Below, piece by piece: positions 34,422 to 62,859 of a stretch of 64,000 nt of DNA (position 1 is the first letter of the stretch; every line of letters begins with the position of its first letter). The notes beneath the pieces are model-generated. The model was given only the letters and a program-made list of their open reading frames with translations. It was not told the DNA's origin and searched no databases. Where the stretch lies: assembly GCF_034424155.1 (NCBI RefSeq), contig NZ_CP139992.1, positions 3,798,012 to 3,862,011 of the forward strand, written 5' to 3'. The translations under genes were made by a program, and so were the position numbers. Source of the DNA: Hafnia alvei. Its GTDB lineage: Bacteria; Pseudomonadota; Gammaproteobacteria; Enterobacterales; Enterobacteriaceae.

Positions 34422-35555
34422 TTAACGGGTTAAATCGTCGAAGAATTTCTTTACACCGTCGAGGAAACTTTTAGAACGTGGGCTGTTATTCGCGCTCGAA
34501 GAATCGCCAAAGCTCTCTTCCAGCTCGCGCAGCAGCTGCTTCTGTTTCTCATTCAAGTTAACCGGTGTTTCAACCACGACGCGGCATAGCAGGTCGCCCT
34601 GACTTCCACCACGTACAGATTTAACGCCTTTGCCTCGCATACGGAACATCTTGCCGGTCTGGGTTTCCGCAGGGATTTTCAGCTTAACGCGACCATCCAG
34701 CGTTGGAACTTCAATCTCGCCGCCAAGTGCAGCCATCGCAAAGTTGATCGGTACTTCACAGAACAGGTTGTTATCTTCACGTTCGAAGATTGGGTGCGCT
34801 TTAACCTGAACCTGTACGTACAAATCACCCGCTGGAGCGCCATGCTCACCGGCTTCACCTTCGCCGCTTAAGCGAATACGGTCACCGGTATCAACGCCCG
34901 CAGGAATTTTCACCGATAGCGTTTTAGATTTCTCTACGCGGCCATGCCCATGACATTTGTTGCACGGATCTTTGATAATCTGACCACGTCCATGGCAGTG
35001 TGGACACGGTTGTTGCACGGTAAAGAAGCCCTGACGCATCTGTACCTGACCTGCACCATGACAGGTTGGACAAGTGACAGGCTCAGTGCCTTTTTTCGCG
35101 CCGCTGCCGTGACAAACTTCGCACTCAACCAAGGTTGGAATGCGAATTTCTTTGGTCACACCGCGCACCGCCTCTTCCAGCGTCAGCTCCATGTTGTAAC
35201 GGAGATCTGCACCACGGGTCGCACGCTGACGGCGACCGCCGCCGAAGATGTCGCCGAACACGTCACCAAAGATGTCGCTGAAGTCTGCACCGCCGCCGCC
35301 ATATCCGCCGCCACCGCCGCCCATACCACCTTGTTCAAAGGCTGCATGGCCGTATTGATCGTAGGCTGCACGTTTCTGCGCATCGGTTAAGATCTCGTAG
35401 GCTTCTTTAACCTCTTTGAACTTTTCTTCAGCGTCTTTTTCCTGATTGCGGTCAGGGTGGAACTTCATCGCTAGGCGTTTATAAGCCTTTTTGATTTCGC
35501 GCTCTTCCGCATCGCGGGATACGCCCAAAACCTCGTAATAGTCTCTTTTCGCCAT
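34422..35555 (-). CDS. dnaJ: DnaJ, Hsp40 co-chaperone
   Basis: 377 residues. A J domain with HPD ([11 protein letters not shown]), a Gly/Phe-rich linker ([14 protein letters not shown]), and four zinc repeats [24 protein letters not shown] and CNKCHGHG. The C-terminal substrate-binding domain follows. It delivers clients to DnaK and stimulates its ATPase. It follows dnaK by 121 bases in the same direction. Confidence 0.98.
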
Positions 35556-35676
35556 TCTCTATCCTGCCCTTAACATAACTGCACGGGCGTTGAGTTTCCT
35601 CGACGCCCGTGCCGGTTAATAGTAACGACGCTTAATGGTTAACCACTACCGTCTTTACCTAGCCCGCTAAGGGCGA

Positions 35677-45194: not shown

Positions 45195-45354
45195 AGCGAA
45201 TTCCTCTTAGAGAACGATTAACCAAGTATAAGAGTTACGGTAGATCTGTCTGGTTTGTGAATCAAAGATTCGGAATAAACTGTAGGGGGAGAAGTGGCAA
45301 GGAGTGATGACAGGGCTTTCCTTTCTCACCTATTCACCAGCGGTGTATGTAATT

Positions 45355-45488
45355 ACGGTGTAAGGTATCGTCCTTCAGACACGCATGCGAACACGGTGTA
45401 AGGTTTCGTCCGTCAGACACGCATGCGAACACGGTGTAAGGTTTCGTCCGTCAGACACGCATGCGAACACGGTGTAAGGTTTCGTCCG
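45355..45488 (+). repeat. 38-bp direct tandem repeat, 3.5 copies
   Basis: Units start at 45355, 45393, 45431 and 45469 (the last partial, 20 bases). Each begins ACGGTGTAAGGTTTCGTCCG and ends TCAGACACGCATGCGAAC. Copies 2 and 3 are identical; copy 1 differs at about two bases. The first 20 bases equal the outer end of the box repeat that begins in the fourth copy, so the array seems to be an amplified end of that element. The 160 bases before it (45195-45354) show nothing recognisable. Confidence 0.9.
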
Positions 45489-45556
45489 CCGATTTATACC
45501 GAACTCCATTGATACATCAATGAAGGCGTCCGATGAGGGGCGCCAGCGCGCGCCCC
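45469..45556 (+). repeat. Box-plus-hairpin repeat, copy A
   Basis: The box runs from GTGTAAGG and TTTCGTCCGCC through ACCGAACTCCA to GGCGTCCGATGA. It is closed by the hairpin GGGGCGC, loop CAGCGC, GCGCCCC (45537-45556). Copies B and C, in the other orientation at 46280-46364 and 46160-46248, share GTAAG, TACGTCCGCC, AACTC and GGCGTCCG in the same order, followed by their own hairpins. Confidence 0.8.
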
Positions 45557-45604
45557 TTCAATCCTCGCGCTTTTATCCGAGACGCCATCTCCGCGCCGGG
45601 TCGG

Positions 45605-45655
45605 CATGCGCCATCCTTGGCGCCTCCTCCCCTCGTGAAAACATCCTGTTTTCAC
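45605..45655. repeat. Two short hairpins with TCCT/AGGA loops
   Basis: GCGCC, ATCCTT, GGCGC (45608-45623) and GTGAAAAC, ATCCT, GTTTTCAC (45635-45655), the second a perfect 8-bp stem. Loops read AGGAT or AAGGAT on the minus strand, like the AGGA and AGGGA loops of the hairpins at 45997-46066. They lie between copy A and the heptamer arrays. Confidence 0.65.
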
Positions 45656-45700
45656 TGCTCTAAATGCCATAACTTAAACTCAAAAACAGATAGAGTTTTT

Positions 45701-45770
45701 GTCTTTTGTCTTTTGTCTTTTGTCTTTTGTCTTTTGTCTTTTGTCTTTTGTCTTTTGTCTTTTGTCTTTT
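45701..45770 (+). repeat. Heptanucleotide array, 10 perfect GTCTTTT copies
   Basis: Seventy bases are exactly ten GTCTTTT units, with partial matches before. The next seven bases (GATTTCT, 45771-45777) keep the register, and the second heptamer array starts at once. All six frames through the unit are free of stops, so spurious open frames arise here. Confidence 0.95.
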
Positions 45771-45777
45771 GATTTCT

Positions 45778-45902
45778 GGGTTTTGGGTTTTGGGTTTTGG
45801 GTTTTGGGTTTTGGGTTTTGGGTTTTGGGTTTTGGGTTTTGGGTTTTGGGTTTTGGGTTTTGGGTTTTGGGTTTTGAGTTTTGGGTTTTGGGTTTTGAGT
45901 TT
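45778..45902 (+). repeat. Heptanucleotide array, about 17 GGGTTTT copies
   Basis: Fourteen perfect GGGTTTT units (45778-45875), one GAGTTTT, two more GGGTTTT, and a final partial GAGTTT. The plus strand has many G3 runs spaced by T4, a canonical G-quadruplex pattern; the minus strand reads AAAACCC. Copy number is expected to vary by slippage. Confidence 0.95.
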
Positions 45903-45912
45903 GACCTTTTCT

Positions 45913-46149
45913 GGCACGTTGTTCTTCAGCCGAATTGAGAAATGCAGGCTAGGATTTGCCGACCGGACGTCGGCAAAAGAGCGACGGAGGCATGGACAAA
46001 TTTGCAGGGAGCAAATTTGAACAACGCTTGCGTTGGCCCCGTAGGGGTGAGGCGCAAGGATGCGCCGAATATCCGCGATTGTCGCTCGTTCCGTTAAAGC
46101 CGGAATGACGAGATGAGGGAACCTGCGAAGCAGGCTGAAGAACGGTGCC
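45913..46149. repeat. 237-base chain of hairpins with imperfect terminal inverted repeats
   Basis: The left end GGCACGTTGTTCTTCAGCC (45913-45931) pairs with the right end GGCTGAAGAACGGTGCC (46133-46149). Inside are successive hairpins: TTTGCCGAC/GTCGGCAAA (45955-45977), CAAATTTGC/GCAAATTTG (45997-46019), CAACGC/GCGTTG (46022-46035), CCCC/GGGG near 46040, GGCGCA/TGCGCC (46051-46066), an interrupted CTCGTTCCG stem (46085-46112), and CCTGC/GCAGG (46121-46133). No credible protein is encoded. It could be a non-autonomous mobile element or a structured RNA. Confidence 0.6.
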
Positions 46150-46159
46150 AAGCCGGGTT

Positions 46160-46248
46160 GTTAGGGGGCGGCGATTGGCCCCCTAACACGGACGCCCGCA
46201 CAGTTTAGATGTGGAGTTAAGTGCTTTAGGCGGACGTAACTTACCCCA
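46160..46248 (-). repeat. Box-plus-hairpin repeat, copy C
   Basis: Hairpin GTTAGGGGGC, 8-base loop, GCCCCCTAAC (10-bp perfect stem, 46160-46187), then a 60-base box (46189-46248). The box matches copy B at most positions: both read CGGACGCC at one end and AGGCGGACGTAACTTACCCC at the other. Confidence 0.85.
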
Positions 46249-46279
46249 ATATAAAAATATTCGAGCATGAGTAATTGAG

Positions 46280-46364
46280 AGGTTGCGCGCTAGCAACCTT
46301 TCGTCGGACGCCTGCACGGTTTAAATGTAGAGTTCAGTGTTTTAGGCGGACGTAACTTACCCCA
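46280..46364 (-). repeat. Box-plus-hairpin repeat, copy B
   Basis: Hairpin AGGTTGC, gcgcta, GCAACCT (46280-46299), five bases, then a 60-base box (46305-46364) almost identical to that of copy C, 116 bases away. Box sequence is conserved while the stem sequence differs but still pairs, which suggests that the hairpin shape is what is kept. Ends 13 bases before the csiR stop codon. Confidence 0.85.
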
Positions 46365-46376
46365 TATCTAAAACAC

Positions 46377-62691: not shown

Positions 62692-62717
62692 TTGTCACAC
62701 TCTCCCGAATTAGGCTT

Positions 62718-62756
62718 AAAAAAAAGCCCGCACTGTTTAGGTGCGGGCTTTTTTCT
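62718..62756 (-). terminator. thr operon attenuator
   Basis: Minus strand AAAAAAGCCCGCAC, loop ctaaaca, GTGCGGGCTTTTTTTT, 20 bases after the thrL stop. Leader stalling at Thr and Ile codons would favour the alternative pairing and let transcription enter thrA. Confidence 0.93.
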
Positions 62757-62775
62757 TTCTCTTTTTCTGTACGCG

Positions 62776-62859
62776 TCAGCCCGCCCCGTTACATGTCGTA
62801 TCGGTGGTGGTAATAATTGTTGTGGTGTTCAGGCTGTAGTTATGAAAACTAATACGCAT
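62776..62859 (-). CDS. thrL: ThrL, thr operon leader peptide
   Basis: 27 residues, too short to be called by length. It starts MRISFHNYSLN, has a run rich in threonine and isoleucine (8 Thr, 3 Ile of 27, including TTTIITTTDTT), and ends CNGAG before TGA. The E. coli peptide (21 residues) shares the MKRIS-type start and the exact GNGAG-stop end. Codon starvation for threonine or isoleucine stalls the ribosome here and prevents the attenuator hairpin. The alternating region is longer than in E. coli. Confidence 0.92.
   Translation of the reverse strand: MRISFHNYSLNTTTIITTTDTTCNGAG

Follow-up and report, generated by a model that had tools for sequence, protein, structure and literature searches.

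The junction between a HAD gene and csiR in Hafnia alvei holds a 1-kb island of nested repeats, which raises the questions of what this island is and whether it records the arrival of the adjoining gab/csi cassette. The window analyzed here is a stretch of 64,000 nucleotides (NZ_CP139992.1, positions 3,798,012 to 3,862,011), to which coordinates refer unless a genome locus is named. Its genome (G000) was compared with those of three relatives in the genus (G001, G002, and G003).

Anatomy of the island

The island spans approximately 45355 to 46364 and is crossed only by low-complexity ORFs, none of which was seen to encode a transposase. An initial annotation, made from the letters alone, had listed 38-mers, boxes, hairpins with GGA loops, some 28 heptamers, a chain of hairpins, and a pair of inverted boxes on the right, and all of these lie where it placed them. 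Its description of a noncoding, composite-looking inverted element with structured-RNA character was borne out. From left to right, the order is a 38-bp tandem array, a minus-strand arm, two heptamer arrays, a plus-strand arm interrupted by a 75-bp insert, and a pair of terminal boxes.

The tandem array at the left end (45355 to 45488, plus strand; 3.5 units of 38 bp, 97%) is present as annotated, but what is repeated there is the terminal repeat of the element itself, TGTAAGGTTTCGTCCGCC, one in each unit. The orthologous site has 4.5 units in G002 and fewer in G001; other copies also show the spacing of about 38 bp, but their spacers differ. Arm A, of type A1 and recovered as an nhmmer half-module (45472 to 45651), reads outward on the minus strand and contains two GGA hairpins on that strand: hairpin 1, GTGAAAACAGGATGTTTTCAC, with an AGGA loop (45635 to 45655), and hairpin 2, with a CAAGGATG loop (45608 to 45623, outer limits approximate; motif at 45612 to 45619). 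Judged from the motif positions, the two GGAs are 30 nt apart. In G002 the entire stem of hairpin 1 is swapped (AACGCTAACAGGATGTTAGCGTT) and the loop is retained.

The center (45697 to 45902, no strand assigned) comprises TTTTGTC repeated 10.7 times (45697 to 45771) and TGGGTTT repeated 18 times (45777 to 45902), 28 to 29 heptamers in total, which are an expansion of the element's A/T-rich center; in G001 and G002 the heptamers are down to a few. Arm C (45912 to 46188) reads outward on the plus strand and consists of a closing stem, GGA hairpins, and a GC-rich hairpin. Its plus-strand hairpin chain is closed by the inverted ends GGCAC..CAGCC (from about 45912) and GGCTG..GTGCC (to about 46150), and the fold of 45905 to 46200 has a z score of -7.4, which no shuffle equaled. 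GGA hairpin 1 of this arm, TTTGCCGACCGGACGTCGGCAAA, lies at 45955 to 45977 (plus strand), and the 75-bp insert (45997 to 46071, plus strand) stands immediately 3' of the GGA of hairpin 2.

On the right are a first terminal box (46189 to 46248, plus strand), inverted relative to the left end, and a second right end (46274 to 46364, plus strand) made up of the outer part of a B-type arm and another terminal box. The boxes at 46189 to 46248 and 46305 to 46364 are 90% alike, and an inverted match pairs 45521 to 45536 with 46301 to 46316. The three box copies, A, C, and B, were thus correctly located in the initial annotation, but they are the left and right ends of the element and not three independent insertions.

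A dispersed repeat family in the genus

Searching the island against its own genome yielded about 10 other matching places. A pattern search with TGTAAGGTTTCGTCCGCC, in which as many as three mismatches were tolerated, matched G000 at 39 forward and 35 reverse sites, versus 5 for the reversed pattern used as a control. These matches stand paired around copies, as the terminal inverted repeats of a MITE do, with members of a pair approximately 450 to 800 bp apart and no pair in G000 seen to enclose a gene. Our reading of the matched loci puts the number of copies in G000 at about 31, halves and remnants included; the copies elsewhere in the genome on which the initial annotation had staked its reading are thus present. 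At least one full arm was found in 28 of 33 loci fetched from G000 and in every one of the 39 loci taken from G001 and the 39 taken from G002, so that the family occupies at least 39 loci in each of these two relatives. Several draft contigs of G003 (C1, C8, C14, and others) end inside elements, and short-read assemblies therefore probably undercount the copies.

The element is present at the HAD/csiR junction of G001 and G002, and in G003 csiR is accompanied by it as far as the contig end, so that the comparison called for in the initial annotation finds it at this junction in each of the four genomes, a contig end truncating it in one of them. In all, 24 of 26 copies from the relatives (G001 to G003) are orthologous in place to G000 copies, so that nothing singles out the gab/csi junction. 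One of the other two lies at the locus of a truncated G000 copy (L043/L077) and is arguably shared too; for the last (L104), the corresponding G000 site holds a different repeat. At the G000 locus L120 (G000:C1:2831500-2832900), where the three relatives carry the element, the repeat present is a different one (CTCCCCCTTCACAGGGGGAGG ... CTCCCCTGACAAGGGGAGGGTTAGGGTGGGG). The sole locus lacking the element being so occupied, there was no clean empty site for a target-duplication test, and the element showed no target duplication. Relative to its counterparts in the other species, the window copy has acquired heptamers and the 75-bp insert; stem swaps that keep the loop may be explained by exchange between copies.

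The distance from a copy to a gene 3' end is usually no more than about 60 bp. By eye, on a rough ORF call, about 18 of some 28 scorable copies have convergent genes as neighbors, and of 57 gene ends that flank copies, about 44 are 3' ends. No autonomous relative with the same ends was seen in G000. Plasmid and phage records gave three weak plasmid matches and no phage match, and a sequence-motif search of the literature returned no description of the family. Outside the genus, the genomes of the first search contained no strong arm match, only matches to the heptamers or the hairpin-chain insert.

Two unlike arms facing outward

In a typical copy, TGTAAGGTTTCGTCCGCC forms terminal inverted repeats, and two unlike arms face outward from an A/T-rich center. 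Among 211 arms from the four genomes, classed as types A1, A2, B, and C, both arms face outward in 102 inverted pairs, which are made up of 60 A-B, 40 A-C, and 2 B-C combinations, orthologues being included so that the counts are not independent. Like is never paired with like, and the single A-A pair is a same-direction duplication. Each arm has two GGA-loop hairpins; 417 such hairpins lie on the outward strand and none on the inward strand, and CA(N)GGAYG motifs number 371 on the outward strand and zero on the inward strand, with about 11 expected. Despite differing stem sequences, the GGA-GGA distance is 28 to 30 nt in about 190 of the 211 arms (30 in A1, 29 in A2, 29 to 30 in B, and 28 to 29 in C). 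The identity of the island as a copy of a dispersed two-armed repeat is well supported, and the structure and distribution of that repeat are directly visible in the genomes.

From two to four Watson-Crick pair types occur at stem positions, with the paired bases changing together, and the pairing is therefore maintained. Whether it is maintained in RNA or DNA was addressed through wobble pairs. A strand-symmetric count restricted to pairs predicted on both strands gave 28 G-U versus 15 A-C, no clear bias, and initially favored purely DNA-level pairing, a reading later weakened because this test drops fixed G-U pairs. A symmetric walk through the GGA hairpins gave 128 G-U versus 4 A-C cells and 21 versus 1 distinct stems, with two arm B columns dominating; by columns, the same data stand at about 13 versus 5. 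The controls are too weak to calibrate these figures (CsrB, 8 versus 3; 6S and tRNA alignments poor or of too few sequences), and wobble lends modest support to an outward-strand RNA.

Relation to TwoAYGGAY and CsrB

Paired GGA-loop hairpins about 30 nt apart, as in the arms of the repeat, also define TwoAYGGAY, an RNA motif reportedly described by Weinberg in 2010 and an orphan since. In cmscan searches against Rfam (TwoAYGGAY, RF01731, cutoff of 43 bits), window arm A scored 33.6 bits (E value of 0.0035), under the cutoff, and window arm C, interrupted by its insert, was not among the TwoAYGGAY matches. Arm C of sister copies in G000 and the genus scored 44.9 to 50.7 bits, above the cutoff; the G000 copies that pass include those at 741369, 2699292, 2791695, 3174980, 3275444, 2717820, and 4714396, and several G000 copies have a weaker match in the opposite direction on the other arm. 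The repeat family thus has TwoAYGGAY members, of which the window copy, by the cutoff, is not one; the evidence supports kinship between the arms and TwoAYGGAY at the level of the family, though not by the cutoff for the window copy. About 7 kb to the left of the window, L305 (G000:C1:3789600-3792000) scores 55.3 bits and has a different outward partner arm (GCCACAGGGATGTGGC). Elsewhere in the window, Rfam models identified Thr_leader (62717 to 62840, minus strand) and the tpke11 sRNA (35554 to 35630, minus strand), as expected for an enterobacterial genome.

What sets the repeat apart from TwoAYGGAY is that its two arms differ from each other and stand back to back within a dispersed element bounded by terminal repeats. 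On visual inspection, tandem GA in a stem, a TwoAYGGAY feature (PMC4333381), was seen in one subtype of arm C (GGACAGCC / GGCTGGAA) and in the stem of the terminal box; in window arm C these positions are base paired instead. Gardner and Eldai proposed TwoAYGGAY as a CsrA binder (PMC4333381), and our literature search found no experimental test of that binding. The GGA-loop hairpins of CA(N)GGAUG type are shared with CsrB and related CsrA-sequestering RNAs, but the repeat offers short paired arms in many copies and not one long sRNA. The genome has its own CsrB, and the island gave no match to the CsrB covariance model (RF00018).

The hairpin-chain insert

The insert at 45997 to 46071 is missing from the orthologous site of G001 and G002 and seems to move on its own. 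It scored 28.5 bits against AaHKsRNA22, under the cutoff of 39.8; similar hairpin chains occur in E. coli, Serratia, and others, with 266 E. coli genomes matching. Further instances are at L218 and L221, near the pattern match, and at L091, around 2501 to 2551: in distant gammaproteobacterial contigs, an insert of 75 to 80 nt splits the T-loop of tRNA-gene copies (GGTTCGA^...^ATCC) with no target duplication, and in Proteus it lies within an rhs-like gene. Some E. coli intergenic repeats (L090, 2380 to 2600; L092, 2450 to 2600), bounded by TACTCTAAATAATTCGAGTTGCA / TGCAACTTGAAGTATGACGAGTATA, have GGA-loop hairpins too.

Comparable elements

The same plan recurs in other genera. Outward-facing GGA-hairpin pairs were found in G005, G012, G014, and G023, GGA spacing of 28 to 30 nt in G005, G006, G020, and G028, and central short tandem arrays, unrelated in sequence, in G006, G020, and G023; the copies in G006 and G028 are for the most part one-sided. 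Long elements in G023 (L005, L018, and L029) combine several different central heptamer arrays, tandem outer repeats, and outward GGA hairpins, the same plan in unrelated sequence.

REP/BIME and REPIN elements are mosaics of palindromic units near gene 3' ends, and the repeat described here resembles them in build and placement; to our knowledge, its terminal sequence and GGA hairpins bear no resemblance to REP. The genome has Y1_Tnp in five identical copies and one fragment, none of them tied to the repeat. With the MITE-like enterobacterial repeats ERIC/RU-1, YPAL/RU-2, and RU-3 (PMC2229807), it shares a noncoding, dispersed, intergenic, inverted-repeat-based character, but those are shorter than 200 bp and it is modular and about 450 to 900 bp long, reaching 1 kb. 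The E. coli repeats RrA, RrB, and RrF, located behind rrn operons, are transcribed by read-through and bind CsrA in vitro via GGA motifs (PMC8144298). They too are repeats with GGA motifs behind gene or operon ends, but they are linked to tRNA or rRNA genes and contain a copied gene 3' end, and the available part of that report describes no two-armed anatomy. The E. coli yqfE region of PMC8144298 was considered as an instance of the element and dropped, its intergenic gap being different.

Interpretation and alternative explanations

We infer that the copies are most likely old nonautonomous repeats transcribed as 3'-UTR or read-through RNA able to bind CsrA. For the island itself, an even chance attaches to the reading that it is an expanded, mosaic copy of a dispersed nonautonomous intergenic repeat whose TwoAYGGAY-type arms act as CsrA sites or sinks. 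The center is A/T-rich and would be prone to slippage, and the nonidentical arms would each specify a TwoAYGGAY-type RNA with GGA loops about 29 nt apart. The copies, adjoining gene 3' ends and mostly between convergent genes, would be inherited in place and would swap parts among themselves. Transcription running past a neighboring gene, from either side, would copy the far arm in the GGA sense, its paired GGA loops could bind a CsrA dimer, and the copies would then provide CsrA with sites or sinks in 3' UTRs or read-through RNA. Read-through from flanking genes is favored over internal promoters because neither promoter (center included) nor terminator signals exceeded shuffles in the window copy. 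The arms may be transcribed and bound by CsrA; this mechanism is our best guess, at about even odds. Dispersal and terminal repeats suggest that the family spread as a mobile element, though no transposition event was seen.

The strongest competing explanation, although an improbable one, is a purely selfish MITE-like DNA element, now mostly immobile, whose hairpins would function in transposition or replication and not as RNA. Terminal inverted repeats, dispersal, lack of coding capacity, near-perfect Watson-Crick stems, wobble that is strand symmetric in one test, and an insert that moves between unrelated contexts without target duplication all fit such an element. Conservation of the loops and the 29-nt spacing on one strand only does not, nor do the lack of an autonomous partner and of terminal-repeat pairs enclosing a gene, or the conserved sites of 24 of 26 copies.

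Rather less probable is a BIME/REP-like element acting at 3' ends, in mRNA stability or in the ending of transcripts, in which the GGA loops are incidental. Such a role would accord with strong folding and with placement against gene 3' ends, but the window copy has no intrinsic-terminator signature where 2.4 are expected, and the GGA in every arm at fixed spacing is left unexplained. That the island is neutral debris of repeats, its heptamer tract prone to slippage, is very unlikely: heptamer number does differ greatly between species, but compensatory stem changes, fixed spacing, a one-sided motif, and heterotypic outward pairing over four genomes, with the same plan in several other genera, argue against decay. 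Hardly credible is a composite mobile element that carried in the gab/csi cassette, as the initial annotation had suggested from its inverted outer boxes and the adjoining csiR, because csiR and the element stand together in four of four genus genomes, contradicting such an arrival within the genus, some 30 sister copies adjoin unrelated genes, the island holds no transposase, and the boxes form the ordinary ends of a single element and flank no cargo.

In this genus, the orphan motif TwoAYGGAY forms one of the two arms of a dispersed repeat that adjoins gene 3' ends, and its GGA spacing is fixed; this gives it a genomic setting and a testable role. More speculatively, and with the chances against it, dozens of back-to-back TwoAYGGAY elements might form a dispersed CsrA buffer, with GGA sites possibly rivaling those of CsrB, through which read-through would tune the Csr system, a design that would have arisen or persisted in several enterobacterial genera. 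The family may thus be a case of a repeat family feeding a global RNA-binding regulator.
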